A stretch of 64,000 nt of DNA from Blastocatellia bacterium (lineage in GTDB: Bacteria; Acidobacteriota; Blastocatellia; Chloracidobacteriales; Chloracidobacteriaceae): assembly GCA_019695185.1 (NCBI GenBank), contig JAIBAN010000002.1, forward strand, positions 124,001 through 188,000. Reading direction: 5' to 3'. The notes under the pieces are model-generated. The model had not been told where the DNA came from, did no database searches, and was given only the letters and a program-made list of their open reading frames with translations. Each line of letters starts with the position of its first letter. Positions within the stretch are counted from its first letter, which is position 1. Below are positions 4,772 through 61,518 of the stretch, piece after piece. The position numbers and the translations under genes were made by a program.

Positions 4772-4875
4772 GTTCAGGGTTCAGGGTTCAGGGTTTTAAG
4801 TTTTGAAACCTGCCGCAAAATCTTCAGGTTTGTGATATTCGCCCCCCTGAACCCTGAACCCTGAACCCTGAACCC
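4772..4875. repeat. Paired inverted heptad arrays (GTTCAGG)3 / (CCTGAAC)4
   Basis: Three copies of GTTCAGG at 4772-4792 begin just after the xthA stop. Four copies of the complementary unit CCTGAAC at 4846-4875 run into the hemL stop codon. A 53-bp unique spacer separates them. They could fold into a long hairpin between two convergent genes. Confidence 0.9.
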
Positions 4876-6191
4876 TAGTTTTTGATTTTCTTAAAGGCCC
4901 GCTCTGCCGCCGCAATGGTGGCATCAATCACTTCGTCGGAATGGGCGGTTCCCAGGAAGGCAGCCTCAAACTGGGAAGGTGGCAGATACACCCCTTCGGC
5001 CAGCATGGCATGGAAAAATCTGGCAAATAATCCGGTATCGGAGGTTTTCGCCGTTTCCCAATCAGTTACCGGGGTTTCAGTGAAGAAAACCGTGAACATC
5101 GAGCCGACCCGGTTGAGTACTGTTTTGAAACCATTTTTCTGGGCTGCCTGCTGAATACCTTCAGCCACCTTTTTCGATTGTCGTTCCAATCCTTCATACA
5201 CTCCGGCCCGGCGCAGCAACTTCAAGGTGGTCAACCCGGCCGTCATGGCAAGTGGATTTCCCGACAGGGTTCCAGCCTGATAAACCGGTCCTACCGGAGC
5301 GACACAATCCATAATTTCTTTGCGTCCGCCGTAAGCCGCTGCCGGCAAACCGCCTCCCATGATTTTTCCGAGTGTGGTCATGTCGGGTTTAATCCCGTAC
5401 TTTTCCTGCGCTCCGCCCGGAGCCAAACGAAAACCCGTCATCACTTCATCAAAAATCAGGACTGCGCCGTATTGGCTGGTCAGGTCCCGGATGCCTTCCA
5501 AGTAGCCTGAAGCCGGGGGAACACACCCCATATTTCCCACTACCGGTTCAATGATGACACAGGCCACATCCGCCGGATAGGTTTCAAACACCTGACGGAG
5601 AGCATCCAGGTTGTTAAAAGGGACCGAGATTGTATGTTGCGCGGTTTCGGGGGGCACTCCCGGACTGTCCGGCAACCCCAACGTGGCCACACCCGACCCG
5701 GCTTTGACCAGGAGGGCATCCCCATGGCCATGATAGCAGCCGATGAATTTGACGACCTTTGTCCGGCCAGTATATCCACGTGCCACCCGAATCGCACTCA
5801 TCGTGGCTTCAGTGCCGGAGCTCACCATCCGGATTTTTTCGACGGAGGGCATGATGGAGCAAATCGTTTCGGCAACCTCGACCTCAAGTTCGGTAGGGGC
5901 CCCAAACGAAGTCCCCCGCTCCATGGCTTTCTGCAGAGCTTCTATCACTTCCGGATGGGCATGTCCCAAAATCATGGGGCCCCATGATCCGATGTAATCA
6001 ATAAACCGGTGACCGTCCACATCCGTGAGATAAGGGCCTTGTCCGGAACGAATGAAAACCGGAGTGCCACCAACCCCGCGAAAGGCCCGCACCGGACTGT
6101 TGACACCACCGGGAATCGCAGTTTGGGCCCGCTCAAATAATTTTTCCGAGCGGCTATAATTAGGCTGAAGTAGTGATAAGTCTTTTTGCAT
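4875..6191 (-). CDS. hemL: Glutamate-1-semialdehyde 2,1-aminomutase
   Basis: This PLP enzyme turns glutamate-1-semialdehyde into 5-aminolevulinate in the C5 route to haem. At 438 residues it is normal length. Visible markers are the N-terminal [11 protein letters not shown], the PLP phosphate-binding SSGTEAT, the IIEPVVGN strand, FDEVMTGFR, and the PLP lysine K276 in TLGKIMGGG, a context typical of HemL rather than of other class III aminotransferases. It is last in a minus-strand series ribE-ribBA-hemL, with gaps of 155 and 165 bp, so co-transcription is possible but not shown. Its stop codon is embedded in a heptad array. Confidence 0.95.
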
Positions 6192-6356
6192 AAAAAATTA
6201 CAATGGTACGCAACCTTCTCGCCGGCTATTTTTCAGGCTTCCTGTAAGCCGCCCAAAACGCCCGCCGTGGGTTCCAGGTGGTTTTTTTGGTCTCCAAATC
6301 AGGATGCAGCGTGACGTGTTCATCTCAGTGACGGCTGATGGGGCAGAACTGACTGT

Positions 6357-7487
6357 CTATATTGAAGCAGTGGGTGGTTCACCAATCGGTACCGACTCGA
6401 TAAAAGTCAGCCCGAACCCTTCGACGGCTGTCAACTTGCGGGGGTGGTTGGTGAGTATGCGAATTTTGTGCAATCCGAGCGCCCGCAGAATTTGCGCGCC
6501 AATCCCATAATCATTGACATTTCCGTGTGAAAAATTGATGGGTTCGGTCGAGTGATCGGCATGTGCCCGAACATGCGCTTCCAAAATATCTCCGGCCTCG
6601 GCTTGCCGCAAGTATAACAGAACTCCACAACCTTCCTGGGAAATTCGCTCCATTGCGGTTCGCAACCAAAACCCGGACGGGTCGCGCACATCAGCAAAGG
6701 TGTCTCCTAACAGCGATTGGGAATGAACCCGCACCAACACTGAGTCGCGTTCAGCCGGATTGCCTTTGACCAGAGCCAAATGAACCTGTTGGGTAAGCTG
6801 ACTGCGAAAGGTCATGGCCCGAAAGCTGCCGAAGGGGGTTTGCAAATCAGCCTCGGCGGTTTTGCAGACCAACATTTCATTCGCCAACCGATAGCGAATC
6901 AGGTCAGCCACCGAAATAATTTTCAAGCCATGGTGTTCGGCAAAGGTTTGCAATTGCGGGAGACGTGCCATCGTGCCGTCGTCGTTCATAATTTCGCAAA
7001 TAACCCCTGCCGGGGTCAACCCTGCCAGACGCGCCAGATCAACACTCGCTTCAGTTTGGCCGGGCCGTACTAAAACCCCGCCCTTCCGCGCCCGGAGCGG
7101 AAAGGTATGTCCCGGTCGGGCCAGGTCCTGGGGCCTGGTTTGCGGGTTGATGGCAGTTTGAATGGTGGTGGCCCGGTCAGCGGCTGAAATCCCGGTGGTG
7201 ACGCCTTCTTTGGCTTCGATTGAAACCGTGAAGGCCGTACCAAAGCGCGAAGAATTGGTTGGCACCTGCAAGGGTAAATCCAATTCGTCGCAGCGTTCCT
7301 CGGTCAAAGCCAGACAAATCAGGCCGCGCCCGAATTTGGCCATGAAATTTATCAATCCCGGAGTGACTTTTTCTGCGGCACAGGCCAAATCGCCTTCATT
7401 TTCCCGGTCTTCGTCATCTACGATAATGACCAGCTTCCCTTCCTGAAAATCGGCAATGGCCTCTTCAATGCGTGTTAGGTTCGACAT
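6357..7487 (-). CDS. ribBA: DHBP synthase fused to a degenerate GTP cyclohydrolase II domain
   Basis: Residues ~1-205 are a complete 3,4-dihydroxy-2-butanone-4-phosphate synthase (RibB) with the acidic [10 protein letters not shown] loop, the TGISAADR motif and GHTFPLRA. It makes the four-carbon precursor of riboflavin. Residues ~215-376 have the GTP cyclohydrolase II fold but lack key residues. The segment that normally carries the three zinc cysteines reads [19 protein letters not shown], with no cysteine. The usual GRGIG motif is GCGVLL, so the catalytic arginine is gone. The second half is therefore probably not a working cyclohydrolase, as in the known RibBX type. A separate RibA is expected elsewhere. 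ribE lies 155 bp upstream. Confidence 0.9.
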
Positions 7488-7642
7488 GGGTTCAAGGTGT
7501 GAAAGAAGGAAAGCGGAAGGACAAGGTGCAAAAATTCGGAGCCCGGATTCAAAGTCTGCATGCTTTCCCCTCTTTTACCCTTCCGGACCAGCCTTTCACA
7601 AGAAAAAAATAAACTTTTTTGGCAGCCGGAAAACAGGACACC

Positions 7643-10889: not shown

Positions 10890-11045
10890 ATCCAGCTCCT
10901 CAGCAGAAAAAATGATTTTTCGAAAATGGAATTTCGAGAAAGCGGCCTGGAAGAACAACCGCCCGCAAAAGCCCGCCCACTCTAATGCAACGCCTGCGCC
11001 TCATGCAAGCAGTATCAGCCTAAAAATCAAGCCAGTTCTTTCCAA

Positions 11046-11145
11046 GGACTGAGGACTGAGGACTGAGGACTGAGCCTTAAAATGAGGGGGAAATCCCTCA
11101 GACAGCCAAAAACCACCTTGGCCCTTAGTCCTCAGTCCGCAGTCC
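11046..11145. repeat. Paired inverted heptad arrays (GGACTGA)4 / (TCAGTCC)3
   Basis: GGACTGA is repeated four times at 11046-11074 and the inverted unit lies at 11125-11145 in three imperfect copies. The spacer is about 50 bp. The pair lies in the upstream region of accA. Confidence 0.9.
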
Positions 11146-11231
11146 TGGTTTTCCTCCCTGGACTGCTTAGGCAGAGTTGGATAGAGTGTGACTTCATTCT
11201 CATCAATTCCTTTCCTTTCCGAAACATCATT

Positions 11232-12215: not shown

Positions 12216-12228
12216 CATCCGAATGACT

Positions 12229-12540
12229 GCGGACTGAGGATGTTCCGGCATTCCGGAAGAATGCATTATGGTAGCCAGGGTATGGAGCGCCGCGGAATCC
12301 CTGGTCACAAATCCAAAGGACTGAGGACTGAGGACTGAGGACTGAGGACTGAGGATGTTCCGGCATTCCGGAAGAATGCATTATGGTAGCCAGGGTATGG
12401 AGCGCAGCGGAATCCCTGGTCACAAATCCAAAGGACTGAGGACTGAGGACTGAGGACTGAGAACTGAGGATGTTCCGGCATTCCGGAAGAATGCATTATG
12501 GTAGCCAGGGTATGGAGCGCCGCGGAATCCCTGGTCACGG
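12229..12540. repeat. 115-bp tandem repeat, three copies, with GGACTGA arrays and palindromes
   Basis: The segment starting TGTTCCGGCATTCCGGAA occurs at 12241, 12356 and 12471, an exact 115-bp period. Each copy has a palindrome (TTCCGG-CATT-CCGGAA) and a larger hairpin bounded by CCAGGG and CCCTGG. Copies are joined by four or five GGACTGA heptads. Copies differ by single bases (GCGCCGCGG versus GCGCAGCGG). It looks like a REP-type unit amplified together with a heptad array. It lies between accA and the Septu-like genes. Short open frames across it are translations of the repeat and are not genes. Confidence 0.93.
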
Positions 12541-12597: not shown

Positions 12598-14052
12598 ATG
12601 CCAAAGAAACCATCCGCCGCCGGCAAAACACTTCCTAAAAAACCAAAACAGCAGGCGAACGGAGCACCGTCCCCAACGACGACTCCGCCGCCTGCTTATT
12701 TTTTGTCGTTGACGGTGGAAAACGTCCGTTGTTTTGGGCCGAAACAAACCCTTGATTTGTCCGATGGGAACGGGCGTCCGGCACAATGGACGGTGATTTT
12801 AGGTGAGAATGGCATTGGAAAAACAACACTTTTACAGTGTTTGGCTGGAATGGAACCAATTGTAGATCAGGCGACATTTCGAAATGGCGGAATGGAAAAA
12901 CCTGCCCTTGCTCGATTGCCAAAACTTTATTTCAACAAAATGTCATTGGACATTTCCCAATTCCTCCGCGCTGGAAAGGACAAAACCGAAATAAACGTTT
13001 CAATTGCAATGGGTGGCACCCTTGCTTCGAAGGATTTTCAAGAAAAGGCAATCGGGTCTTTGCATCTCAAAAGATACTTTGAGAACGTGTTGCGCTCCTT
13101 CAATGAAAAACCACACCTTGGATTTGATAAGCTAAATGAACTGATTTGTTACGGATACGGTGTCTCCCGCAGGATGAGGGAGGAACCTGCACGTACTGAA
13201 CCACCGGATGATTCGACGCTTTCACTTTTTTCCAGCGATGCTGTACTACGAAACTCTGAAGAGTGGTTGCTCCAACTCGACCATGAAGCTGCCAAAGGTG
13301 ATAAATCCAAAAGAACCCTATTCAAAACCGTTGAAAACCTCCTTATTGGAGGTAAAAACGGAAAGAAGTTACTCCCGGACGTTACAAATATCAGAATTGC
13401 TCCCACTCACGTTTTCGGCGTCATTGGCGAGCCTTTGAGAGTTCAGTTTGAAACCTCCTATGGTTGGGTTTTGATTTCTGAATTAAGTCACGGTTATCGA
13501 ACCGTAATCACCTGGATGGTTGATTTGGCACGCCGCTTGTTTGACCGTTATCCTGATGGTGATGCCCTTTCAAAACCAGCAATTGTGTTGGTTGATGAAT
13601 TTGATTTACACCTACATCCAAAATGGCAACGTGAATTGATTGAGTTTCTGTCAGACCGTTTTCCCAATACCCAGTTTATCGTGACGGCCCATAGCCCGCT
13701 GATTGTGCAGGCTGCGGTGAGTGCCAACGCCAACATTGCGGTTTTACAACAGGAAGGCGACCATGTTGTGATTGACCAATCACCACCTGCAATTCGAGGA
13801 TGGCGGGTTGATCAAATTCTGGCCAGCGATTTGTTTGGTGGAATCAGTCCACGTGGGCCGGAACTGGATGACCTGCTGGCACGCCGGAACGCCATTCTTT
13901 CAAAAGGGACCTTGACCGATAGCGACCATACCGAGTTGGCCGAACTCCGGCAGCAAATCGGCAAGCTCCCGACAGGTGAAACGCCGGCTGATATTGAAGC
14001 CATGGATTTGATTCACGAAGCAGCGAATTATCTCAAACAGCAAAAGAGGTAG
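12598..14052 (+). CDS. ptuA: Septu-type defence ATPase (PtuA-like)
   Basis: The 484-residue protein has a Lys/Pro-rich N-terminal tail and then an ABC/SMC-like ATPase. Walker A is at residues 69-76 (GENGIGKT). An ABC-signature-like ELSHGYRT lies near residue 300, Walker B with the family aspartate/histidine run (VDEFDLHLHP) near 330-340, and the switch TAHSPLI near 365. This is the AAA_21-type architecture of Septu PtuA, which pairs with an HNH nuclease to block phage. Such a nuclease gene starts 4 nt after the stop. Base composition is visibly more A/T-rich than accA upstream, consistent with acquisition. Naming rests on domain order and gene pairing; no search was run. Confidence 0.85.
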   Translation: MPKKPSAAGKTLPKKPKQQANGAPSPTTTPPPAYFLSLTVENVRCFGPKQTLDLSDGNGRPAQWTVILGENGIGKTTLLQCLAGMEPIVDQATFRNGGMEKPALARLPKLYFNKMSLDISQFLRAGKDKTEINVSIAMGGTLASKDFQEKAIGSLHLKRYFENVLRSFNEKPHLGFDKLNELICYGYGVSRRMREEPARTEPPDDSTLSLFSSDAVLRNSEEWLLQLDHEAAKGDKSKRTLFKTVENLLIGGKNGKKLLPDVTNIRIAPTHVFGVIGEPLRVQFETSYGWVLISELSHGYRTVITWMVDLARRLFDRYPDGDALSKPAIVLVDEFDLHLHPKWQRELIEFLSDRFPNTQFIVTAHSPLIVQAAVSANANIAVLQQEGDHVVIDQSPPAIRGWRVDQILASDLFGGISPRGPELDDLLARRNAILSKGTLTDSDHTELAELRQQIGKLPTGETPADIEAMDLIHEAANYLKQQKR

Positions 14053-15968: not shown

Positions 15969-18143
15969 ATGACCACCACCTCTCAGACAATCTCCCATTT
16001 TCGCACCTGCAATTTGTGTGAAGCCATGTGCGGCATTGAAATCAAGGTGCAGGACGGACAGGTCGTGAGCATTGCCGGTGACCGGCAGGACTCTTTCAGC
16101 CGGGGGCATATCTGCCCGAAAGCGGTCGCCTTGCAGGACCTGCATAGTGACCCGGACCGCCTGCGCCATCCGGTGCGCCGCACGGCTGACGGCTGGGAGC
16201 GTATTTCCTGGGAAGAAGCCTTTGACACGGTGGCGACCAAGCTCCGGGAAGTTCAGATGAAGCACGGGCCGGATGCCGTGGCGTCCTACAGCGGCAATCC
16301 CAACGTTCACAACTATGGCTCCATTATGTTCGGACCCTTTCTGCTGCGCAGCCTGGGAACCAAGAACAAGTTTTCAGCGACTTCGGTGGACCAGTTGCCC
16401 CATCACCTCGCTTCATTTCTGATGTTCGGCCATCAACTGGCTTTACCCATCCCGGATATTGACCGGACTGACTTCTTTCTCATCATGGGCGGCAATCCTG
16501 TGGTTTCCAACGGCAGTCTGATGACGGCTCCGGACGTGGCCAATCGCATCAAGGACATCCGCAAACGGGGCGGGAAAGTGGTGGTGGTGGACCCGCGCAA
16601 AACCGAAACAGCCGAGATTGCCGACGAACATCTGTTTATTCGTCCGGGCACGGATGCCTGGCTGCTCATGGCAATGCTCCAGGTGATGTTTGCGGAAAAT
16701 CTGGAAAAGCCGGGAAGACTTTTGGAATTCACGAGTGGGTTGGAACAAATCCGCGAGTTGGTAACTGCCTTTACCCCGGAAGCCGTGGCCGGTGTCACCG
16801 GTATTCCGGCTGAACGCATCCGGACGCTTGCCCGCGCCTTTGCCGGAGCCAAAACAGCGGTCTGCTATGGTCGCATCGGGCTTTCAACTCAGGAATTTGG
16901 TGGGTTGTGTCAATGGCTGGTCAATCTGGTCAACCTGGTAACGGGCAATCTGGATGCGCCGGGAGGCTCAATGTTTACCCTTCCGGCGTTTGATACGGTG
17001 GGAATTTCCGGCAGAACCGGCCAACGGGGCAGTTTTGCCCGGCGACGGACCCGTGTGCGCAACCTGCCCGAATTCGGCGGGGAGTTCCCGGTCGCAGCCC
17101 TGGCCGAAGAAATTCTGACACCCGGTCCTGGCCAAATCCGTGCCCTGGTGAGCTCGGCAGGCAATCCGGTACTTTCCACCCCCAATGGTGGCCAGCTTGA
17201 GCAAGCCCTTGAAAATCTTGACTTTATGGTTTCGATTGACGTGTATGTGAACGAAACCACCCGCCACGCCCATATCATCCTGCCGCCCACCGGTCCGCTG
17301 GAACATGAAAATTACGATGTTGTGTTTCATGTGCTGGCGATTCGGAATACAGCCAAATACACGCCTGCGCTCTTTGAACCGGCTCCGGACACGCGCCACG
17401 ACTGGGAAATTTTCCTTGAACTCTTTCGCCGACTGGCTGGCGACCAGCTTCCGCCCCGTGAAAAGAAACGCATCACCAAATGGCTGGCTAAACACAAAGG
17501 ACCGGAAGGCGTGCTGGATTGGGCTTTCCGTTCGGGTCCATACGGTGGCCGGTTCAAACAGTCCGCCACGGGGCTGACGCTTGGGAAGTTGAAAAACGCA
17601 CCGCACGGAATTGACCTGGGGCCGCTCGTGCCCTGTTTGCCGAAACGGCTGTTTACCCCATCCAAACGAATCGAGGCCGCCCCGGAACCATTTGTGGCAG
17701 ATGTCGAACGACTGCGGCTGCGGCTTCAGGAATGGTCGGCTTCAACCAACGGCGACTTTGATTTGCTCCTCATTGGCAGACGGCAGCTCCGCAGCAACAA
17801 TTCCTGGATGCACAACAGTTTCCGGCTGGTCAAAGGCAAGGACCGATGCACCCTGTTGATTCACCCGGAGGATGCGGTCAAACGCCAATTGACCCAAGGA
17901 CAAACCGTCCGCGTTGCCTCACGGGTGGGAACCATTCAGACCAAAATCGACATTACCGCCGAAATGATGCCCGGCGTCGTCAGCCTGCCGCACGGCTGGG
18001 GGCACACGCGCCCCGGCATCAAACTCCAGACCGCCCAGGAATTTGCCGGAGTGAGCCTCAACGACCTGACCGACCATGCAGCCGTTGATACCCTTTCCGG
18101 AAATGCAGCCCTGTGCGGCGTGCCAGTCAGAATTGAGAATTGA
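15969..18143 (+). CDS. Molybdopterin-dependent oxidoreductase, DMSO-reductase family
   Basis: The 724-residue cytoplasmic-type protein binds a [4Fe-4S] cluster through C14-x2-C17-x3-C21-x27-C49 and carries the molybdopterin domains: GDRQDSFSRGHICPK, the VASYSGNP segment, LIMGGNPVVSNG, and the C-terminal cap domain with VSLPHGWGHTRPG. No Tat or Sec signal is seen. The start has a clear AAGGAG site 4 nt before the ATG. Substrate and electron partner are unknown, because no iron-sulfur or membrane subunit gene is adjacent. Sequence style resembles the broad group near formate dehydrogenase alpha and assimilatory enzymes. The last four residues and stop are encoded by a GAATTGA array. Confidence 0.9.
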   Translation: MTTTSQTISHFRTCNLCEAMCGIEIKVQDGQVVSIAGDRQDSFSRGHICPKAVALQDLHSDPDRLRHPVRRTADGWERISWEEAFDTVATKLREVQMKHGPDAVASYSGNPNVHNYGSIMFGPFLLRSLGTKNKFSATSVDQLPHHLASFLMFGHQLALPIPDIDRTDFFLIMGGNPVVSNGSLMTAPDVANRIKDIRKRGGKVVVVDPRKTETAEIADEHLFIRPGTDAWLLMAMLQVMFAENLEKPGRLLEFTSGLEQIRELVTAFTPEAVAGVTGIPAERIRTLARAFAGAKTAVCYGRIGLSTQEFGGLCQWLVNLVNLVTGNLDAPGGSMFTLPAFDTVGISGRTGQRGSFARRRTRVRNLPEFGGEFPVAALAEEILTPGPGQIRALVSSAGNPVLSTPNGGQLEQALENLDFMVSIDVYVNETTRHAHIILPPTGPLEHENYDVVFHVLAIRNTAKYTPALFEPAPDTRHDWEIFLELFRRLAGDQLPPREKKRITKWLAKHKGPEGVLDWAFRSGPYGGRFKQSATGLTLGKLKNAPHGIDLGPLVPCLPKRLFTPSKRIEAAPEPFVADVERLRLRLQEWSASTNGDFDLLLIGRRQLRSNNSWMHNSFRLVKGKDRCTLLIHPEDAVKRQLTQGQTVRVASRVGTIQTKIDITAEMMPGVVSLPHGWGHTRPGIKLQTAQEFAGVSLNDLTDHAAVDTLSGNAALCGVPVRIEN

Positions 18144-18277
18144 GAATTGAGAATTGAGAATTGAGAATTGAGAGAAGATTTTGTCTTCCTTGAGTTTACG
18201 GCAAACTCCACCATTGTAGTTGAGGTCACAAGCAAGGATGTCTTTCATTCTCAATTCTCAATTCTCAATTCTCAATT
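18130..18277. repeat. Paired inverted heptad arrays (GAATTGA)6 / (CTCAATT)4
   Basis: Six GAATTGA units at 18130-18172 contain the stop codon of the oxidoreductase. Four CTCAATT units at 18250-18277 contain the stop of the convergent FG-GAP gene. The spacer is 77 bp. Confidence 0.93.
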
Positions 18278-21200
18278 AAAAAGTGGTTTGACCAAAGGTG
18301 ACGGCCCGCAGGAAGGTAATATCAGCGGCACTGACCGAACCACTGCCTCGGCTTCCGTTCGCATTGGCAGGCACCACGTCGGCGGCCAGCAACTGGCGAC
18401 TGGTGAGCGTGGCCTGTGCCAGCGTAAAGGCCCGCGCCAGCGCCACGTCCGCCGTGGTGAAGATGCCGTCCGCCGTCATATCCCCCCACAGAATGAATTC
18501 CGGAAATGTAGCCGCCGGGTCACCTGGATTGGTCGAGAACGGCAATCCTTGGGTGGTGGTATCCACTCCATTCACCCGAATAGTAAGAAAGCCGTTGATA
18601 TTTCCGGCCCCTGACGAGGAAGCCGGGACTACCACGGTGAGCGTCGTGGCACTGGTGACGTTCACGGAGGTTCCGGCAATCAGTCTGGAGCCGCCAAAAA
18701 AGACCTGCGTGTTTCCGGCAACAAACCCGCTGCCGCTGACGGTGATGGTTTTTCCGCTGGTGGAGGCAAACGGATAAAATTGGGTGACGACCGGTGCGGT
18801 TGCAGCGGCGTCCACAATTGTCAGCACTGCCGTGGCAGGAGTCCCCAGAGTCGCCCCGCCGGTGGGGGCCGAGAGCGTCAGATTAACGGTTTCATTCGCT
18901 TCCGCATTAGCATCGGTGGCAATTGTGATGGTAAAGGTCTTGAACAGTTCCCCAGCCGCCAGCGTCAATGTCCCAGAGGCAGCCGTGTAATCGGCTCCCT
19001 GGGTGGCGGTGCCGTCGCTGGTCGCAAAGCTCACTCCAACCGTGCCCTGCGCGCTGTTCAGCCTGGTGACGGTGATGGCCGCAGTGGCCGTTCCTTCGCG
19101 GATGTTGTAGACACTCGAACTGAATTGCAGGGTCGGCCCCGGATTGATGGTGACTGCATAGGATTGCGAGGCAAGACACTGACCGACAGTCACAAAAATG
19201 GTAAAATTAAAGGTCCCGGCCTGGGTTGGTGTTCCGGAAAACACTCCAGTGGAGGTGCTTAATGACAGCCCTGGGGGAATTGAACCGGTAAAACCAAACG
19301 AAGGTGTTCCGGTTCCTCCGGTTTGGGAAAACGTTTGGCTGTAAGGCACCCCAACGGTTCCATTCGGTGCGGTGACCGGGTTGACCGTAATCACCGCACA
19401 AACCAGCAGGGTATAGGCACGTGACCCGGTACAGCCATTGGAATCGGTGGCGGTTATGGTCAGCGAAAAGCTCCCGGTTTGCGTTGGGGTTCCCGAAAGT
19501 TGCCCGGTTGCCGGGTTTTGGGTAATGCCCGGCGGCAAAGCTCCGGCAGTGATACTAAAACCAACACCTCCGATTCCTCCGGTTTGACTCACAAATTGAC
19601 TGTATGCCTGACCGATGATTCCATTTGTCAGACTGGTTTGGTTGAGCGTGATGGTTTGACAATTGATGGTGAGGGAATATGCCCGCGAACCAGGACATCC
19701 GTTCCCATCTGCCCCCGTCACGGTAAAGTTAAAGGTGCCAACATCAGTTGGGGTTCCGGATAAGACTCCCGCCGATGACATGGTTAAACCGGCAGGAAGC
19801 GTTCCGGTCACGCTGAACACCCCGTTTCCGGTTCCGCCGGACTGGGTAAATGTCTGGCTGTAGGTGGTTCCAGCCGTTCCATTGGGAATCGAACTTGGGT
19901 TTACGGTGATAACCGGGCAACAGGTATTGAGCAACACGATCACCCTACCGGAGGAATCGCCGATGGTCAGCGCATAATCTGTTTTTCCGTCCTTGTCGAA
20001 ATCAGCCAGTGCAGCCCGTTTTGCGTTTGTACTGCCTGCCACTGTCGTGACGTTTTGGGTAAAACCGCCGCTGCCATTCCCCAGCAGCACATCAAGGGTG
20101 TTGTTTCCCAACATCAACAACAAATCCAAATTGCCGTCCCGGTTTGCATCGTCTGTATTCAGGGAAGCAAAGTTACTGCCAATAGCCACAGGCGACCCGG
20201 CTGCCTGGGTAAACGTGCCATTTCCATTTCCCAACAAAATGGACAAAGTTGTGGCCAGATTGCTCGCCACCGCCAAATCAGCCCGGCCATCCCGGTTGAA
20301 ATCCCCAACCGCCAATCGGTTTACCCCATCAAATCCGGTCAGCGGTGATCCACTGGCCGCAGAAAAACTGCCGGCCCCATTTCCCAGAAGGATGGAAACC
20401 GAATCACTTGCAAAGTTTGAAGTCGCAAAATCAGGGCGTCCATCCCGGTTAAAGTCCCCAATCACAACATCATTAGGACTGCTCCCCAACGTAACCGGAG
20501 AACCAGCCGAAGCACTAAAACCCCCGCTGCCGTTGCCCAACAAAATTGTGGCATTGTCCGGGCCGGAATTGAGAACCACGAAATCCGGGTTGCCATCCAG
20601 GTTGAAATCCGCTGTGGCAAGCTGGTTCGGGGAGGCTCCCACTGTGACCGGGGACCCAGCCGCAGCAGCAAACCCTCCGTTCCCGTTCCCAAGTAAAATG
20701 GTGACACTTTGGGCGGTGTTATTCGAAATCGCCAAATCCGGCTTGCCATCTTTGTTCCAATCACCGGAAATGATTCCCAGCGGGAAGGTTCCTGTCGTTG
20801 GAGAGGCTGCCGCAGTGAAACCGCCGACTCCATTTCCCAGCAAAATGCTCACCGTATTTGAGTTTGAATTGGTCACCGCCATGTCCGGGTTGCCATCCCG
20901 GTTGAAATCCGCCGAGACGACATTTTGCGAGGTATTGCCCACGGTAATTGGCGAACCGGAGGCCGCTCCAAAATTGGCATTGCATTGGGCCGCACAAGTG
21001 TTGAGCTGGATGTTGAGTTGGTCAAGTCCGGCAACCGCCACGACAAAATCCGGTTTCCCATCACGATTGAAATCAGCCACCGCCAAATCCTGCGGGTTAT
21101 TGCCGATGGCCAAAGGGGACCCGGACGGCTGACTAAAACCACCATTCCCATTCCCTGCCAAAAAGGTCACATTTCCATTCGTACTGTTGAGGCTTGTGAC

Positions 21201-22244: not shown

Positions 22245-22595
22245 AATGCACATTCCCTCTCCCGCTGGAAGCCAGTTTTCCCAATCGAATAGTGATGGGC
22301 ACTTCATTGAATTTTTGTGATGGAGCTTTTTAGAGGATGATTTCTATTCAACTGCAATTCTCATACCAGACAGGGAAGATCTTGGATCAACAGCTTATCT
22401 GGTTGATTTACAATAGGTTTTCAGGAAAAACGGGAATCCTGGAAAAAATTCCGAACCTGGAGGCGTCCCGAAACGAGTCATCGGTCCAGCCAGGCTGTAA
22501 CAAAACAGTTCGTATAATTGAAATGTTTTTCCGCTGGATTTGGCTTACACTGGGGCTCCAGGAGTTTGAATCTGCTCAATGGGGTTTGAAAAACC
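22245..22595. other. Divergent intergenic region
   Basis: This is 351 bp between the minus-strand FG-GAP gene and the plus-strand cupin gene. I see no open frame worth calling. A TATAAT hexamer at 22513-22518 could be a -10 element for the cupin gene, but I found no matching -35 element. Nothing else stands out. Confidence 0.5.
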
Positions 22596-22973
22596 ATGCA
22601 CGAAATCGCGGCTGAACCAATCTCCCCTACTGAAAAACGGCATGTCACCCTGGCCGAAGCACTCGCGCACCTGCCGGCTCCTGGTGGAGAACGTTTTGCC
22701 ACAGTGTTGGAACATGGCACGCTACAAATTGAAATCTATGCTCCGCGCGGTCTGGACCCACAGCAACCGCATCCCCGTGACGAAGGCTATGTGGTCGTGC
22801 AAGGGAGTGGCGAATTTATCAACGGAACAACCCGGCACTCCTTTGGTCCGGGTGATTTTTTGTTTGTACCGGCGGGGGTGGAACACCGCTTTGTCAATTT
22901 CACTGACGACTTGGCCGTGTGGGTCATTTTTTACGGCCCCGAAGGTGGAGAGGTTTTCAGGACTGAGGACTGA
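22596..22973 (+). CDS. Small single-domain cupin protein
   Basis: The 125-residue product is one cupin_2 barrel. The first motif carries H59 and E63 (QPHPRDEGYVVVQGSGEF) and the second carries H97 (GDFLFVPAGVEHRFVNF), giving a plausible metal site. Such proteins can be isomerases, dioxygenases or sugar-binding sensors; nothing here decides between them. The last residues (FRTED) and the stop are encoded by two GGACTGA heptads at 22960-22973, so the array has replaced or extended the original C-terminus. It is transcribed in the same direction as the CHAT-TPR gene 60 bp downstream. Confidence 0.8.
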   Translation: MHEIAAEPISPTEKRHVTLAEALAHLPAPGGERFATVLEHGTLQIEIYAPRGLDPQQPHPRDEGYVVVQGSGEFINGTTRHSFGPGDFLFVPAGVEHRFVNFTDDLAVWVIFYGPEGGEVFRTED

Positions 22974-22981
22974 GAACAAAC

Positions 22982-23013
22982 AGCAATTCCCGGTGTGAGC
23001 AATTCCCGGTGTG
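22982..23013. repeat. Two tandem copies of a 16-bp unit
   Basis: AGCAATTCCCGGTGTG occurs twice without a gap in the short space between the cupin gene and the CHAT-TPR gene, just upstream of the latter's start. It could be a doubled operator or a simple slippage product. Confidence 0.85.
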
Positions 23014-23035
23014 AGCTACCTATAAAACTGTTGGT

Positions 23036-36566: not shown

Positions 36567-36589
36567 AACCAACTCTGATTTCCCGACTT

Positions 36590-37348: not shown

Positions 37349-37418
37349 GGCGGCGACAAGTCGCCGCCAACCAAAGCGGTGACAAGTCACCGCACTCCAA
37401 AGCGGCGGCAACCGCCGC
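37349..37418 (-). repeat. Right REP cluster of the Y1 element, inverted
   Basis: GGCGGCGACAAGTCGCCGCC at 37349-37368, GGTGACAAGTCACC at 37379-37392 and GCGGCGGCAACCGCCGC at 37402-37418 repeat the left block in reverse orientation, including the ACCAAAGCGG linker. Confidence 0.88.
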
Positions 37419-46149: not shown

Positions 46150-46716
46150 ATGACGTTGTTTCTGAAAAAACTGTCTTTCCTGGCCCTGACCTTGATATTG
46201 TTCCCTTTTGCCATTCAGGCGCAACAACCACCTGCTCCCACCGCCCAAATTGAAGCGATGAAACGCATGCAACTCATGGTCGGTGAATGGGAAGGCGGCG
46301 GCTGGATTGAATTCGGTCCCGGCAAAAAACTGGAATTTACCGGTCATGAATCCATTCAACCCAAAACCAACGGCACCACTCTTTTGGTGCAAGGGCTGCA
46401 CAAGTCGAAAAGCGATGGAAAAACCCCGGAACGGGTCATTCATGACGCTTTGGCAATTATTTCCTTCAATGAAAAGGAAAAAGCCTACCGGATGAAAGCC
46501 TGTTTGGCATCCGGTGCCCAAACCGATGCAGTTATTTCCATCACCGAAACAGGTGCCATGCAGTGGGGATTGCCGGATAATCGCGGCGGACAAATCCGTT
46601 ACACCATTACCATCGCAGAGAAAGCCACCTGGAATGAAGTGGGCGAATATTCAATGGATGGCAAAACCTGGCGGAAATTCTTTGAAATGAATCTGAAACA
46701 CAAAGGAACCAATTGA
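46150..46716 (+). CDS. Secreted DUF1579-like barrel protein
   Basis: The 188-residue product has a clear signal peptide (LSFLALTLILFPFAIQA) and a beta-rich mature part with the 'MKRMQLMVGEWEGGGWI' opening and 'HESIQPKTNGTTLLVQG' seen in DUF1579/lipocalin-like proteins. That family is annotated only as small-molecule or heme-binding-like barrels; no ligand can be named here. The last residues (KGTN) run into a 44-bp repeat that includes four GAATTGA heptads. GGAGA lies 12 nt before the start. Confidence 0.65.
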   Translation: MTLFLKKLSFLALTLILFPFAIQAQQPPAPTAQIEAMKRMQLMVGEWEGGGWIEFGPGKKLEFTGHESIQPKTNGTTLLVQGLHKSKSDGKTPERVIHDALAIISFNEKEKAYRMKACLASGAQTDAVISITETGAMQWGLPDNRGGQIRYTITIAEKATWNEVGEYSMDGKTWRKFFEMNLKHKGTN

Positions 46717-46975
46717 GAATTGAGAATTGAGAATTGAGAATTGCATAAGGAACCAATTGAGAATTGAGAATTGAGAATTGAGAATTGCATAACGCAACTT
46801 GTTCTTTTTCAATCAAATTACAAGAAATACAACGGGGGGCTGACGGTTTTTTGCACTTCTCATCCCTTGTAATGTATTCAGAACTCCTGTTGCTTCTATA
46901 ATTAAGACAATTCTCAATTCTCAATTCTCAATTCTCAATTCTCAATTCTCAATTCTCAATTCTCAATTCTCAATT
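46703..46975. repeat. Paired inverted heptad arrays; left array doubled as a 44-bp unit
   Basis: A 44-bp unit (AAGGAACC plus about five GAATTGA-type heptads plus a GCAT-type end) occurs at 46703 and again at 46747. The first copy contains the DUF1579-like stop codon. After a 117-bp spacer, about ten CTCAATT units fill 46908-46975. This array ends 3 bp before the ATG of the histidine kinase gene. Confidence 0.93.
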
Positions 46976-46978
46976 CTT

Positions 46979-49644: not shown

Positions 49645-49658
49645 ATACTTCCCAGGCA

Positions 49659-49800
49659 GGACTGAGGACTGAGGACTGAGGACTGAGAAATCCACCTGTC
49701 TTCCATCCTGGCAAAAGATTGATAAAGAAACCTCTCTCCGCGAATTCGATCAATTCTCACATTTCAGAAACTCAGTCCTCAGTCCTCAGTCCTCAGTCCT
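49659..49800. repeat. Paired inverted heptad arrays (GGACTGA)4 / (CTCAGTC)4
   Basis: Four GGACTGA units at 49659-49687 begin 15 bp upstream of the TetR start and four inverted units lie at 49772-49800. The spacer is 84 bp. This pair lies in a divergent region, so the arrays are not restricted to gene ends. Confidence 0.93.
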
Positions 49801-49904: not shown

Positions 49905-51011
49905 TTGTCCGAACAACTGAAACTCACCGCACTTGGAGAAACCCACCGAGCGCTCGGTGGGAAAATGGTCGATTTTGCCGGCTGGGAAATGCCCGTGCAA
50001 TATACCGGCCTGATTCCCGAACATATGGCGGTGCGCACCGCCGCCGGTTTGTTTGATGTCAGTCACATGGGAGAAATCGAAGTCCGGGGCCGGGATGCGT
50101 TGCGCCTCATGCAACTCATCACCTGCAATGATGTGGCCAAACTGGCCGACCGGCAGATTCACTATTCCGGACTGATGACCGAACAAGGCACTTTTGTGGA
50201 TGACATTTTGGTCCACCGGTTGCACGTCGAGCATTTTTTCTGCTGTGTCAACGCCTCAAACGTAGACAAGGATTTTGCCTGGTTTCAACAACATGCGGCA
50301 GGCCTGGAAGTCGAAGTCCTCAATTCCAGCTCCGCTTACAGCCAATTGGCCCTCCAGGGGCCGAAAGCGGTGCAGATTCTTCAGACTTTAACGGATTTCG
50401 ACCTTTCCACGCTGAAATACTACTGGTGTCAGCCGGAAATTGAGTTTTTTGGCGTCAAGGTTTTTTTGACCCGCACCGGTTATACAGGTGAAGATGGATT
50501 TGAGCTGTATTTTGCCCCCGAACACACAGTGGCCATTTGGGAAGGGTTGATGCGCGCCGGCAAATCCGAAGGTCTCATTCCAGCCGGTCTGGGAGCCCGC
50601 AATACGCTTCGACTGGAAGCCAAAATGGCCCTCTACGGCCATGAAATTGATGACACCACCACTCCACTGGAAGCTGATTTGGGCTGGATTTGCAAGCTGT
50701 CCAAAGGCGAATTTTTGGGCAGCGATGTGCTCAACCGGCAAAAAGCCGAGGGGCTGAAACGAAAACTGGTGGGGTTTGAAGTTGATGACCGGGTTCCAGT
50801 ACGGGACGGTTATCCGATTCGCCACAATGGACAGGACCTGGGTACGGTGACATCCGGCAGCCCATCGCCGTTCCTCAAGAAAAACATCGGTCTGGCTTAC
50901 TTTCCGATTGAACTCACGGAAATCGGAACGGCTTTTCACGTTTTGGTTCGGGGACGCGAAGTCCCTGCACACGTTGTTCCAACGCCTTTTTACAAGCGAG
51001 CCAAAGGTTAG
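49905..51011 (+). CDS. gcvT: Aminomethyltransferase, glycine cleavage T protein
   Basis: GcvT takes the aminomethyl group from GcvH and passes the methylene to tetrahydrofolate. The 368-residue product from TTG 49905 begins [20 protein letters not shown] and has [12 protein letters not shown], the [13 protein letters not shown] motif, [14 protein letters not shown], and a C-terminal domain with [12 protein letters not shown]. Conserved sequence starts exactly at the TTG; AGGT lies 6 nt upstream. The frame is open to 49719, but that part is repeat-derived. The order gcvT-gcvH-gcvPA follows on the same strand with array-filled gaps. No glycine riboswitch was recognised upstream. Confidence 0.93.
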
Positions 51012-51164
51012 GGTCCAGGATCCAGGATCCAGGGTCCAGGGTGTTGAGTTTTGATTTTTGAATGACAAAAAATTTCGCTTCACAACTTGAAATGCAAACC
51101 CGGTCGTTCAAGATTTCTCCCTCCTGAAACCTGAAACCTGAAACCTGAAACCTGAAACCTGAAA
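51012..51164. repeat. Heptad arrays (GGTCCAG/GATCCAG)4 and (CCTGAAA)6 between gcvT and gcvH
   Basis: Four GGTCCAG/GATCCAG units at 51012-51042 start at the gcvT stop. Six CCTGAAA units at 51123-51164 end shortly before the gcvH ribosome site. The two units are not exact complements, unlike the other pairs, but polarity and position are the same. Confidence 0.88.
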
Positions 51165-51189: not shown

Positions 51190-51582
51190 ATGTCAAACTA
51201 TCCGGATGATTGCTATTACACGAAAGACCATGAATGGATCCGCGTAACCGGCGACACAGGACGTGTCGGCATCACGCATTATGCCCAGGAATCGCTCGGT
51301 GATGTGGTCTATGTTGATTTGCCCAAAGTGGGCGAGTCATATCAGTCAGGAGACCCCTTCGGCTCCGTTGAATCAGTCAAGGCCGTCAGCGAGTTGTTTA
51401 TTCCGGTTTCGGGGGAAATCGTGGAGATCAACGGCCAATTGGCTGACGCCCCGGAACTGGTCAATTCATCCCCTTATGATGAAGGCTGGATGGTGACCGT
51501 CAAATTCAGTAACACAGGCGAACTTGACAGCCTGTTGTCTTCCACTGAATACGAGGATTTCATCAAGGAAGGGAAACTCTAA
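51190..51582 (+). CDS. gcvH: Glycine cleavage system H protein
   Basis: GcvH carries the aminomethyl intermediate on a lipoyl lysine between the P, T and L proteins. The 130-residue protein starts with YPDDCYYTKDHEWIRV and has the lipoylation lysine K64 in FGSVESVKAVSEL, followed by GEIVEINGQL and the conserved YDEGWMV. Length is normal. An AAGGAG site is present, although 14-15 nt from the ATG, which is long. The gene is followed by a GAATTGA array starting at its stop codon. Confidence 0.95.
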   Translation: MSNYPDDCYYTKDHEWIRVTGDTGRVGITHYAQESLGDVVYVDLPKVGESYQSGDPFGSVESVKAVSELFIPVSGEIVEINGQLADAPELVNSSPYDEGWMVTVKFSNTGELDSLLSSTEYEDFIKEGKL

Positions 51583-51728
51583 TTGAGAATTGAGAATTGA
51601 GAATTGAGAATTGAGAATTGGAAATGCAATTTTTCAATCTCTTGAGTTTCAATTTTTTCGCCTGATGAAACTGTCCTTATTCAACTTTCGCCAAGGTTTT
51701 GGTCATTCTCAATTCTCAATTCTGAATT
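51581..51728. repeat. Paired inverted heptad arrays (GAATTGA)5 / (CTCAATT)3
   Basis: GAATTGA heptads at 51581-51620 begin in the gcvH stop and the inverted array lies at 51705-51728, 11 bp before the gcvPA start. The spacer is about 84 bp. Confidence 0.92.
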
Positions 51729-51739: not shown

Positions 51740-53092
51740 ATGCGATATATTCCCAATTCCGTTGCATCCGTCCGCGAATCAATGCTGGAAAGCATGGGCG
51801 TCAAAAATGTTGGCGACCTTTTCGTCGGAATCCCGCACAATCTGCTGCTGACCGAACCGCTCAAGATTCCGCCGGCGGAATCTGAGACGGAACTGATTGA
51901 GTCCTTCAAAAAACTGGCGGGAGTCAATCGCCATCCGGATTCCTATGCCTCATTTTTGGGAGCCGGGGTCTATGACCATATTCGGCCTTTGGTTATTGAT
52001 ACGCTGATTTCGCGTTCGGAATTTTATACCTCCTACACGCCCTATCAGCCGGAAGTCAATCAGGGCACAGTCCATTCCATTTTTGAATTTCAGACCATGA
52101 TTTGCCAACTGACCGGGATGGATGTGGCCAATGCCTCAATGTATGACGGCTCAACCGCGCTGGCGGAAGGCATGCTCATGGCGTCCCGGATTACCGGACG
52201 CAAAAAAGTGGTCTGTGCCGGAGCGCTGCACCCCGAATATACGGCAGTGCTGAAAACCTACGCTCATTTTGCCGGGCTGACCGTGGAAACCGTTGGCCCC
52301 GGAGCAGAAGGAATCGGTCAGGTCAGCAGCCTCAAGCTGGAAAAAGATGTGGCGGCAGTCATTGTGCAGTCGCCGAACTTCTTCGGCTGTGTCGAAGATG
52401 TGACCGCGTTTGCCACTGCCGCCCATGAAGTTGGTGCCCTGCTCATTGTTTCCGTGGCTGAAGCCATCAGTCTGGGAATTCTGAAGCCCCCGGCAGAACT
52501 GGGAGCCGATATTGTGACCGGTGAAGGCCAATCTTTTGGGCTGGCCCCCAGCTACGGTGGCCCCTTTGTCGGATTTTTTGCCGCGCGCGACAAGTTTCAG
52601 CGGCAAATGCCGGGGCGGCTCATCGGCCAGGCGTTTGACCAGAATGGCAACCGGGCGTTCACCATCACCATGGCCACGCGGGAACAACATATCCGGCGCG
52701 AAAAAGCGACCTCCAACATCTGTACCAACGAAGCCTTATGTGCATTGGTAGCAAGTATTTACCTGAGCACCGTAGGCCGCCGCGGGTTGCAGGAAATCGC
52801 GGCTCGCAATGCCCAAAAGGCAGCTTATGCGCTGGAAGCCATCACCCGTGTGCCGGGCTATAGTCGGACGTTTGCAACACCTGTGTTCAACGAGTTTGTG
52901 ATTACCACACCGGCTCCGGCTGAAACCGTGGTGAACTCCCTGCTTGAACAAAACCTGCTCGCCGGGCTTCCGCTGGCGAAATACTACCCTGAGCGCACCC
53001 ACGAACTCCTGGTCTGCGTAACCGAAAACACCACCCGCGCCGCCATTGACGCATTGGCGGCAGCGCTGGCAACAGTCAAACACGAGGACTGA
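51740..53092 (+). CDS. gcvPA: Glycine dehydrogenase (decarboxylating) subunit 1
   Basis: This is the N-terminal half-type P protein, which with GcvPB forms the PLP-dependent glycine decarboxylase. The 450-residue product has RYIPNSVASVRESMLESMGV, SFLGAGVYDHIRP, FYTSYTPYQPEVNQGTVHSI, YDGSTALAEGMLMA and the late GEGQSFGLAPSYGGPFVGFF; no PLP lysine is expected in this subunit. The C-terminal residues and stop (VKHED) are encoded at the start of a GGACTGA array. The usual next gene, gcvPB, is not here: yajQ follows. Confidence 0.94.
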   Translation: MRYIPNSVASVRESMLESMGVKNVGDLFVGIPHNLLLTEPLKIPPAESETELIESFKKLAGVNRHPDSYASFLGAGVYDHIRPLVIDTLISRSEFYTSYTPYQPEVNQGTVHSIFEFQTMICQLTGMDVANASMYDGSTALAEGMLMASRITGRKKVVCAGALHPEYTAVLKTYAHFAGLTVETVGPGAEGIGQVSSLKLEKDVAAVIVQSPNFFGCVEDVTAFATAAHEVGALLIVSVAEAISLGILKPPAELGADIVTGEGQSFGLAPSYGGPFVGFFAARDKFQRQMPGRLIGQAFDQNGNRAFTITMATREQHIRREKATSNICTNEALCALVASIYLSTVGRRGLQEIAARNAQKAAYALEAITRVPGYSRTFATPVFNEFVITTPAPAETVVNSLLEQNLLAGLPLAKYYPERTHELLVCVTENTTRAAIDALAAALATVKHED

Positions 53093-53229
53093 GGACTGAG
53101 GACTGAGGACTGAGGAATTCAAAACCAGGAAGTGAAGGCCCCAAAGAATATTCCGACACAGACAGGTTTTGATGTTGCCCCTGGCACTTCATTCAGTTCT
53201 CAGTCCTCAGTCCTCAGTCCTCAGTCCTT
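53084..53229. repeat. Paired inverted heptad arrays (GGACTGA)4 / (TCAGTCC)5
   Basis: GGACTGA heptads at 53084-53115 contain the gcvPA stop codon. Inverted units fill 53194-53229, ending 7 bp before the yajQ start codon. The spacer is about 78 bp. Confidence 0.93.
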
Positions 53230-60424: not shown

Positions 60425-60484
60425 CTCTAAATACCGCCGTCCTTGCACTTCTTTCTACAGTCCTTTCAAGCCCAATCCAACTCA

Positions 60485-60575: not shown

Positions 60576-60577
60576 TA

Positions 60578-61021
60578 TTACAGAAGGTACTCTGCTGGAA
60601 TATTTTTTCCCGGCTGCTCATCCGTCCAAATCAAAGAAACCACCCACCACCTGTTTTGTTCCCACATCAACTGAATGCTGTTAATCCCCCGGACGCCCGT
60701 TTGGGTTCCCTGCGGTGCAACAATCACCGCCTCATAGGTGCTGAAAACATGTGCGATTTCGCCGTAATGTTCGATCCGGGCGGCAATTTGCCGCTCCTGA
60801 AAAGCCACCAGTTCACCAGCCGCCAGCCGGTTCTGAAACCGTGTGACAAAGGCTTCCACCGGAAGTACCACCGTGGCCTGGGCATTGACATGAATCAGGC
60901 GGGCACCAGCGGTGAAAAGCAACCGTAACCGGTCAAAATTGGGGGTTTGCCCTTCCGCAAAGGAAATGGTGGCATACAGTGCCGCAGTTATGGCTTCAAT
61001 TGTGTGGAGTTCTTCAATCAT
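60578..61021 (-). CDS. NTF2/SnoaL-like small protein
   Basis: The 147-residue product from ATG 61021 has an N-terminal helix pair (EELHTIEAITAALYATISFA), a central FTAGARLIHV strand and a C-terminal sheet ending QNRWWVVSLIWTD. This is the cone-shaped NTF2-like fold (DUF4440/SnoaL group). Such proteins are small-molecule enzymes or binding modules; the ligand is unknown. It lies downstream of the BMC-vertex-type gene on the same strand. Confidence 0.7.
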   Translation of the reverse strand: MIEELHTIEAITAALYATISFAEGQTPNFDRLRLLFTAGARLIHVNAQATVVLPVEAFVTRFQNRLAAGELVAFQERQIAARIEHYGEIAHVFSTYEAVIVAPQGTQTGVRGINSIQLMWEQNRWWVVSLIWTDEQPGKNIPAEYLL

Positions 61022-61107
61022 ATCGTACTCTGGCCATAAAACGTTCTGTCCTGGATTGAACTTCAAAACCCGTATCCATCCGGGTCTGCTGCCCGCTGTC
61101 CTGCGTA

Positions 61108-61377
61108 TTATCCAGTCGCAGTCACACTATCCACAATGCCTACAATGGCAGCATCCACCGGACATTCCTTGAGCCCATGCGCCAGCCGGGCGGAACTCCC
61201 CTGCACCACCAAAACCGTTTCGTTGGCCCCGGCCCCGACCGTATCCAAAGCTATCAGAAAACCGCTCTCATCCTTGCCTTCCAGGCTGATGGGTTTGATG
61301 ACCAATAACTTTTGCCCTTGCAGGCGAGGGTCTTTGCGGGTTGCGACCACCGTGCCCCAGGTTCGTGCCAAGATCAT
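61108..61377 (-). CDS. EutN/CcmL-type microcompartment vertex protein, isolated
   Basis: The ATG at 61377 follows AAAGGA. The 89-residue product matches the pentameric vertex protein of bacterial microcompartments throughout: MILARTWGTVVATRKDPRLQ, GQKLLVIKPI, the ALDTVGAGANETVLVVQGSS loop and AIVGIVDSV. These pentamers cap the corners of carboxysome- and Eut/Pdu-type shells. No BMC-H hexamer, BMC-T or encapsulated enzyme is in the window, so either the rest of the locus lies elsewhere or this is a stand-alone use. Frame extension to 61446 encodes a heptad array. Confidence 0.88.
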   Translation of the reverse strand: MILARTWGTVVATRKDPRLQGQKLLVIKPISLEGKDESGFLIALDTVGAGANETVLVVQGSSARLAHGLKECPVDAAIVGIVDSVTATG

Positions 61378-61390
61378 GTGTGCATCCTTT

Positions 61391-61518
61391 GAATTGAGAA
61401 TTGAGAATTGAGAATTGAGAATTGAAGCATCTTTTCCTGATTTCAATGTTGGTTAGAGGCTACGGTTCCTAAACGCCGGAGGCTTTCAAACTCAATTCTC
61501 AATTCTCAATTCTCAATT
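61391..61518. repeat. Paired inverted heptad arrays (GAATTGA)5 / (CTCAATT)4
   Basis: Five GAATTGA units at 61391-61425 start 14 bp upstream of the EutN-type start codon. Inverted units at 61491-61518 overlap the pdxA stop. Both genes run leftward, so the pair sits in a co-directional gap. The spacer is about 65 bp. Confidence 0.93.

Follow-up and report, generated by a model that had tools for sequence, protein, structure and literature searches.

The window analysed here is a 64,000-nucleotide stretch (positions 124001 to 188000 of contig C86) of the genome of a Blastocatellia bacterium, designated G000, which comprises 8.33 Mb in 222 contigs. The genes next to the arrays described here are ordinary ones, such as those for exodeoxyribonuclease III, a response regulator and a histidine kinase as well as hemL, gcvT, gcvH, gcvPA and pdxA. 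The named loci closest to the GcvPA of the window are mostly acidobacterial (best 80 of at least 583), which places the genome outside the cyanobacteria. Gaps between these genes hold two tandem arrays of a 7-nt unit, the arms, which face each other in inverted orientation across a spacer (Table 1), and such arms occur also within the gcvT-gcvH-gcvPA run. In the genome as sampled, one large family and a few small sets of these arrangements recur as arm, spacer and inverted arm at sites with unrelated flanks. A first-pass annotation had listed eight gaps with convergent arrays of one heptamer, and the arrays were found there in each case; for the gap 11046-11145 the arms are convergent as described, but the right one is degenerate. 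GGTCTGG, which had been counted as a related pair, proved to be a single array (3260-3295) sitting in a predicted gene without a partner. The TetR-like gene beside the arm 49658-49687 was named from matches below the curated cut-offs, and the DUF520 gene 3' of gcvPA is called yajQ here.

Table 1. Arms of paired heptamer arrays, and one spacer used as a query, in window coordinates.
Feature	Position	Strand	Context
Left arm (GGGTTCA)n, 3.4 units	4772..4795	+	directly 3' of xth stop codon
Right arm, inverted (GGGTTCA)n	4845..4876	-	reaches hemL stop codon
Left arm (AGGACTG)4AG	11045..11074	+	
Right arm, degenerate inverted GGACTGA, 12 bp perfect	11123..11146	-	
Left arm (GAATTGA)n	18129..18173	+	overlaps 3' end of gene 15969-18143
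Right arm, inverted GAATTGA	18247..18277	-	reaches stop codon of gene 18276-22253 (-)
Left arm GAATTGA	46703..46792	+	doubled by 44-bp direct duplication
Right arm, inverted GAATTGA, 10 units	46908..46977	-	1 bp before called start (46979) of histidine-kinase gene
Left arm (AGGACTG)4AG	49658..49687	+	between TetR-like gene (-) and gcvT (+)
Right arm, inverted GGACTGA	49771..49800	-	
Left arm GGATCCA/GGGTCCA, mixed-unit pair	51010..51042	+	begins on gcvT stop codon
Right arm, inverted GGTTTCA, same mixed pair 51010-51164	51123..51164	-	upstream of gcvH
Left arm GAATTGA	51581..51620	+	begins on gcvH stop codon
Right arm, inverted GAATTGA	51705..51728	-	upstream of gcvPA
Left arm GGACTGA	53084..53116	+	overlaps gcvPA stop codon
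Right arm, inverted GGACTGA	53193..53228	-	upstream of DUF520 gene
Spacer of the 53084-53228 pair	53117..53198	.	whole-genome DNA search
Left arm (GAATTGA)5	61391..61425	+	
Right arm, inverted GAATTGA	61491..61518	-	reaches pdxA stop codon

The abundance of such arrays was determined in 464 kb of G000 (the 64-kb window plus 400 kb) and, with 346 kb more, in 810 kb; in total about 0.95 Mb of the 8.33 Mb was read. Period-7 arrays were counted mostly from 17 bp of perfect repeat upwards, so that shorter ones are excluded from most counts, and genes were called by a simple script that gives rough start positions and was trained individually for a set of other loci. At period 7 the 464 kb contain 113 perfect runs of three or more units; no other period between 4 and 24 exceeds 12, and period 3 has 227. 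Smaller excesses exist for period-9 arrays in G000 (35 in 890 kb) and for period-8 arrays in G003 (20 in 334 kb), a comparison genome from a different genus of the same family. A string of three GGACTGA units gives 571+598 overlapping matches genome-wide and its reversed control none. A convergent partner, i.e., 14 bp of the same unit with at most one mismatch within 400 bp, was found for 99 of the 144 arrays in 464 kb and a divergent partner for none, and 123 of the 144 are intergenic. Over 810 kb there are 237 arrays forming 84 convergent pairs without a single divergent arm, suggesting that the whole genome would hold about 860 pairs if the sample is fair. The pairs have a median total length of about 131 bp and their spacers measure mostly 40-140 bp. 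In the sampled tenth of the genome the arrays are thus neither mostly unpaired nor of random polarity nor spread without regard to gene boundaries, because the pairing, constant polarity and boundary placement that the first-pass annotation had proposed are real in this sample.

The same orientation is seen irrespective of the unit. Among neighbouring arrays 10-200 bp apart, counted without those units that have equal G and C, G000 shows 79 convergent (+/-), four ++, three -- and no divergent (-/+) arrangements; the corresponding numbers are 17, 6, 2 and 0 in G003 and 12, 2, 3 and 0 in the other loci. The 334 kb sampled from G003 contain 23 pairs, without any divergent arm, and in 16 of them the unit is not GGGTTCA but, e.g., GGTTAGT, GTCAGTA or GAATGAA, and small samples from other members of the class hold 0 to 17.5 arrays per 100 kb. 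Two divergent arms, counted at a lower length limit, occur in a further genome, G033; by eye, inverted heptamers of reverse polarity were also seen in the gcvH/gcvPA gap of a Nitrospinota locus (L082). The proposal that each gap has its own unit holds in so far as one gap usually has one unit, common to both convergent neighbours in 58 of 79 cases and different in 21, but the units are not private, since GGACTGA, GAATTGA and GGGTTCA together make up 177 of the 237 arrays. Units lacking GG are no exception to the orientation: a convergent partner is present for 34 of 40 GAATTGA and for four of nine GTTTTGA arrays, a divergent one for none.

Relative to the genes, the polarity can be expressed as a strand rule, evaluated for intergenic arrays at most 60 bp from a called gene edge. 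After stop codons the G-richer strand is the sense strand in 113 of 117 arrays of G000, and before start codons it is the antisense strand in 50 of 51. The rule is kept in G003 (28 of 30 on the stop side, 25 of 25 on the start side) and followed in the other loci (stop side 13 of 17, start side 18 of 21); unpaired G000 arrays by themselves obey it in 53 of 56 cases, and it is also kept where neighbouring arms differ in unit. A general skew of gap edges was rejected as the source, since array-free gaps of G000 are almost without skew there (largest value -0.13, in divergent gaps on the right side). Where arrays are present, the A/T skew of the edges does not exceed 0.12 in either direction; therefore the rule concerns G versus C. 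The few array-free gaps of G003 (10 convergent, 7 divergent) lean the same way as the arrays, by 0.12-0.17. The median distance of an arm is 3 bp to the stop codon (n=63) and 19 bp to the called, i.e., rough, start (n=43); in several GGGTTCA-type copies (L203, L218 and others) an arm seemingly abuts the ATG without space for a Shine-Dalgarno sequence, as judged by eye. For the 53 of 54 pairs that could be assigned to a gap between two called genes, there are 5 pairs (two of them in one gap) in 46 divergent gaps, 15 in 54 convergent gaps and 33 in 202 codirectional gaps. That the arm on the stop side is the longer one was rejected, as the stop-side arm is longer in 20 and the start-side arm in 31 of 55 pairs.

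Orthologous gaps vary in their content. The gcvH/gcvPA gap measures 157 bp in the window and is an array-free 11 bp in G003, and the gcvPA/yajQ gap carries GGACTGA in the window and GAATTAT in G003. Among 89 gcvH/gcvPA loci, a period-7 run of 13 bp is lacking in 71, where the median gap is 21 bp. The other 18 have runs, some of them weak; the window is one of these, and a single record is counted among them twice. When 25 of these gaps were viewed by eye, the order stop codon, array, loop, inverted array and ATG was seen in eight other loci with various units (L029, L030, L031, L035, L036, L045, L047 and L054); in L036 the arms are nearly perfectly complementary though the heptamers vary within an arm.

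The large family is of the GGGTTCA type. Of the 84 spacers, 17 link into one cluster at E<1e-3 (15 of the 17 from GGGTTCA pairs, one from a GGGTCCA and one from a GGGGTTT pair), and one set of shuffled spacers gives no links at this threshold. The clustered GGGTTCA-type spacers align over a common core, resulting in the layout arm, GGGTTTTCGAAT, core of about 30 bp, inner heptamer array with a unit that varies by copy, AAAAGACCC and inverted arm. A 69-bp query, made of 12 bases of arm followed by the core, has at least 41 matches in G000 at 85-100% identity, 40 of 616 first-look candidates having been scored; in G003 it yields matches of 20-31 bp. In G000 as well as in G003, some GGGTTCA arms continue into the junction GGGTTTTCGAAT, and TTTTCGAAT immediately inside the arm is common to some copies in both genera. 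For 23 core matches in 21 loci the surroundings differ by eye and arms often abut a stop or start codon, and for two copies with identical 69-bp cores the 300-bp flanks align at the level of shuffled sequence (scores 11 and 9; shuffled mean 9.5, 95% point 12). Four of the copies are found near contig ends, no more than about 125 bp away, as expected for a repeat that interrupts assembly. A T precedes AGGG in 11 of the 13 arms of that phase, which could reflect a TA target or TAG stop codons. The first-pass annotation had seen no obvious sequence in common between spacers, which is true of those in the window and untrue of the GGGTTCA type in the rest of the genome. Spacer 4796-4844, the GGGTTCA spacer of the window, was rejected as a member of the dispersed family, its nhmmer match having come from a profile that contained it and being absent without it. 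At L136:8815-9008 a GAATTGA element was seen by eye within a GGGTTCA element, at a GTCTTTT/AAAAGAC step.

Smaller related sets exist for the two other main units. Seven of 54 GGACTGA and GAATTGA spacers have a relative in the sample, matching only within pairs of their own unit. Related spacers comprise two clear sets and a weak third one (64% over 77 bases, E 3.7e-5) for GGACTGA, besides a set of three for GAATTGA. With scores of 5-8, their outer 70-bp flanks align at random level (random mean 7.0, 95% point 9.0). One of the GGACTGA sets is represented in the genome by just two close copies, and all three GGACTGA sets are located on contig C11 (L024, L026, L027 and L140), which has 10 of the 29 GGACTGA pairs; this confinement may reflect local spread. 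In whole-genome DNA searches, from which copies of about 68% identity escape, spacer 53117-53198 has no close copy (next match E 0.59) and spacer 46788-46907 one weak partial match only, the latter query failing to return its two 68-69% relatives.

The arms themselves have a defined anatomy. Of 74 GGACTGA arms, 57 begin in the outer phase AGGACTG and 47 end in GACTGAG, with 30 bp, i.e., four units plus two bases, as the commonest length (23 of 73). Their edges are mostly sharp: beyond the perfect run the mean identity to the unit falls to 0.26 outside and 0.30 inside, and the unit is followed at 0.6 or more by 4 of 73 arms on the outer and 6 of 73 on the inner side. The modal unit number is four for GGACTGA (35 of 106 runs) and GAATTGA (20 of 71) and two for GGGTTCA; in the G003 sample overall it is one, at a limit of 13 bp. 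The order of variant units is matched between the two arms beyond unit permutation (p<0.05) in 16 of 71, 7 of 20 and 5 of 27 stems, and therefore some arms were copied whole or onto each other.

We favour the reading that the arrays are dispersed non-coding inverted-repeat elements, foldback-like in consisting of arm, spacer and inverted arm, which were moved or copied as units and later changed by slippage, and we regard its chance of being right as about even. In its favour are the recurrence of related spacers between unrelated flanks, the mostly array-free gcvH/gcvPA gaps of other loci, the sharp arm edges and the near balance, in codirectional stems, of mismatches that wobble in the sense or only in the antisense RNA. 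Dispersal of whole arm-spacer-arm units is better supported than the replication-, repair- or transcription-linked origin suggested at first. The elements would spread as units via an enzyme acting in trans on the arms, which would then gain or lose whole heptamers by slippage, with arm-to-arm copying keeping the arms matched in some cases. Spacers would drift quickly, and selection would leave copies mostly in gaps, tight against stop and start codons. The action of the elements, if any, would be at the DNA level, and the fixed G-strand polarity would be the polarity of the terminal repeats.

Several observations weigh against dispersed elements of this kind. For 47 of the 54 GGACTGA and GAATTGA spacers (25 of 29 and 22 of 25) no relative was found in about a tenth of the genome, and the BLAST links among GGGTTCA spacers come partly from the inner GAATTGA arrays. 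Neighbours with different units are arranged +/- in 37, ++ in seven, -- in four and -/+ in no case, which the terminal repeats of one family would not predict. Convergent gaps have a median length of 131 bp with arrays (n=29) and 119 bp without (n=63), and this near-equality therefore speaks partly against simple insertion. In 13 orthologous gaps, runs of at least 14 bp are present in seven in the window, three in G003 and two in both. No target site duplication emerged over the 84 pairs, where direct repeats of 4-9 bp outside the arms are near the level of re-paired flanks (at 4 bp, 20 versus 15.3 +/- 3.7). Moreover, no transposase of the elements was identified in searches with Y1_Tnp and RVT_1, DDE families not having been searched, and no autonomous copy, the one long +/- arrangement (L017, 3.9 kb) remaining a candidate.

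Some of these points suit growth in place, by which slippage would expand arrays at gap edges and template switching at hairpins would copy one arm onto the other (quasi-palindrome correction), without mobility and with selection protecting coding sequence. Besides the unrelated GGACTGA and GAATTGA spacers and the similar gap lengths, such growth agrees with the matched order of variant units, the near-perfect palindrome of L036, different units in orthologous gaps of different genera and spacers no more structured than array-free gaps. It does not account for the same arms and spacer recurring between unrelated flanks, nor for mostly sharp arm edges, few units serving most gaps and a G-strand polarity that slippage alone leaves unexplained, and we consider it possible but rather doubtful. 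Alternatively, the arms might be made rather than inherited, by a genome-wide, telomerase-like process that uses a short template to extend the 3' ends on both sides of a gap by heptamers, the capped edges being joined via filler DNA. Whatever its unit, each arm would thereby be G-rich strand made into the gap, with a fixed template start and stop (AG(GACTGAG)n, commonest length 30) and a preferred round number, and the spacers enclosed would be unrelated and often unique. Against this, RVT_1 does not track the arrays, which led us to reject a reverse transcriptase as the arm maker: the domain is matched in G000 and G003, gives no match in the array-bearing G025 and has matches in G011 and G013, where no arrays were seen in 40 and 5 kb. 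As some elements were also copied together with their spacers, this mechanism appears quite improbable. Joining of ends by Ku was rejected as well, with no Ku match in G000 or G003.

An action at the RNA level, with the pairs selected as hairpins at gene ends that serve as terminators, mRNA-stability elements or operon boundaries, would fit the position of the arms against stop codons and the relative rarity of pairs in divergent gaps. Over all codirectional stems, however, mismatches that wobble in the sense RNA (G.U, 130) are about as frequent as those that would do so only in the antisense (A.C, 113), and therefore no RNA-level selection is seen; by source the counts are 66/63 in G000, 35/37 in the other loci and 29/13 in G003, which alone leans towards G.U. 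Intrinsic terminators were rejected, as TTTT within 12 nt outside an arm occurs in 15 of 168 cases, compared with 51 of 558 in control gaps, and so were structured spacers, with mean z between -0.47 and -0.67 by class and -0.95 in control (array-free) gaps. Arms inside the gcvT-gcvH-gcvPA run likewise argue against hairpins at gene ends, which we judge unlikely. Formation of G-quadruplexes at gene edges, proposed for the Xanthomonas GGGAATC arrays, finds agreement in the polarity relative to genes (available text of PMC4692102) and in the four-unit mode of GGACTGA and GAATTGA. By sequence, GAATTGA and GTTTTGA contain no GG run and still pair convergently and never divergently, and GGGTTCA, the G-richest of the three main units, peaks at two, which makes quadruplexes a very improbable basis here. 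The same low probability applies to repetitive extragenic palindromic (REP) sequences moved by REP-associated tyrosine transposases (RAYT, Y1). Y1_Tnp matches exist in G000 (11) and G003 (9), but no array of at least 17 bp lies within 600 bp of the Y1 gene at 5 of the 11 G000 places, which were the ones read, and G019 and G055, with 9 and 15 matches, are array-free in samples of 20 and 17 kb. One such gene (G000:C11:85828-86160, L137; RAYT-type) is flanked by several copies of its own, different palindromic repeat. As neither RNA-level selection nor a U-tract, a target duplication or a link to Y1, Ku or RVT_1 was seen, we therefore return to dispersed inverted repeats at the DNA level, moved or copied as units.

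The window contains further repeats. At 12225-12538 a 115-bp unit occurs in 2.7 tandem copies, its GGACTGA arrays all being directly oriented. The gene downstream of it (12598-14052) has a match to PtuA, from the retron Ec78 system, that is far under the cut-off. A perfect 16-bp tandem repeat (22982-23016) lies near a short GGACTGA array (22959-22974) and upstream of a large gene at 23036. A separate repeat family is seen at 36589-36712 and 37350-37411, where imperfect copies, each about 26 bp long, contain hairpins resembling GCGACTTGTCGCCGC, and 63926-63981 is a dispersed repeat with, among the matches listed, 12 in G003 at 80-100% identity.

Cyanobacterial short tandemly repeated repetitive sequences are heptanucleotide tandem repeats of mostly intergenic location, foldback elements have heterogeneous middles, and Xanthomonas genomes measure about 5 Mb. 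Paired placement at gene boundaries had been taken as undescribed, which has to be corrected: the layout itself is already known from Xanthomonas, where 70 (Xcc) and 75 (Xac) close convergent cases of GGGAATC arrays are reported, mostly intergenic and near the open reading frame (ORF) that lies 5' of them (Rehm et al., 2015, available text of PMC4692102). According to the same text these arrays prefer four units, formed a quadruplex in vitro and had no function found; two species have them in largely corresponding gaps, though they differ in length and sequence. They resemble the arrays of G000 in being intergenic heptamers in convergent inverted pairs, fewer between divergent genes, with the G-strand on the coding strand after the stop and on the non-coding strand before ORFs (PMC4692102). 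In contrast, several unit families coexist here, some without GG, the density is higher (84 pairs in 810 kb) and the members of one type are dispersed and share a conserved core. Most arrays are paired here, whereas few of the G-rich heptameric arrays of Nostoc are, as far as that source describes them (PMC4692102).

TAACTGA direct repeats of Beggiatoaceae, cyanobacteria and Bacteroidetes are likewise abundant intergenic heptamers near gene edges, share ACTGA with GGACTGA and are mentioned in connection with repeat-ending contigs, but in the available part of the study they are nearly all unpaired, and the Guaymas genome has them mostly as lone forward arrays ahead of start codons, a single case being inverted (MacGregor, 2015, PMC4679880). 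Here the pairs are convergent, and where a GGACTGA arm precedes a start codon the sense strand carries TCAGTCC; the 24 units tabulated do not include TAACTGA, and start-side arms are C-rich on the sense strand in 50 of 51 cases. Miniature inverted-repeat transposable elements (MITEs) and foldback elements such as Galileo of Drosophila have inverted terminal repeats that may hold tandem repeats, non-coding copies and a variable middle (available text of PMC4168063). The present elements differ in being bacterial, in their arms of 7-nt units and short pairs (median about 131 bp) and in having no identified transposase or target duplication. The MITE trait of related non-coding copies with inverted ends at unrelated sites is found in the GGGTTCA family and a few GGACTGA and GAATTGA sets, and is not found for 47 of the 54 GGACTGA and GAATTGA spacers in the sample. 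Repeats have also been surveyed by unit length (PMC4060949, in part), and a search mainly of open-access papers showed, among the papers listed, none that deals with elements of this kind from acidobacteria. Apparently new are the many unit families, some without GG, that coexist under one polarity rule, together with the high density and the evidence for dispersal of one family.

If this reading is true, a single class of short dispersed palindrome makes up many of the gaps between genes in some acidobacteria. The quadruplex explanation of the Xanthomonas arrays could then not be general, because units without GG obey the same rule. Two testable puzzles would follow, namely the strong preference of the tandem repeats for period 7 and the G-richer strand that runs from the gene edge into the gap across unit families and, by report, in Xanthomonas.

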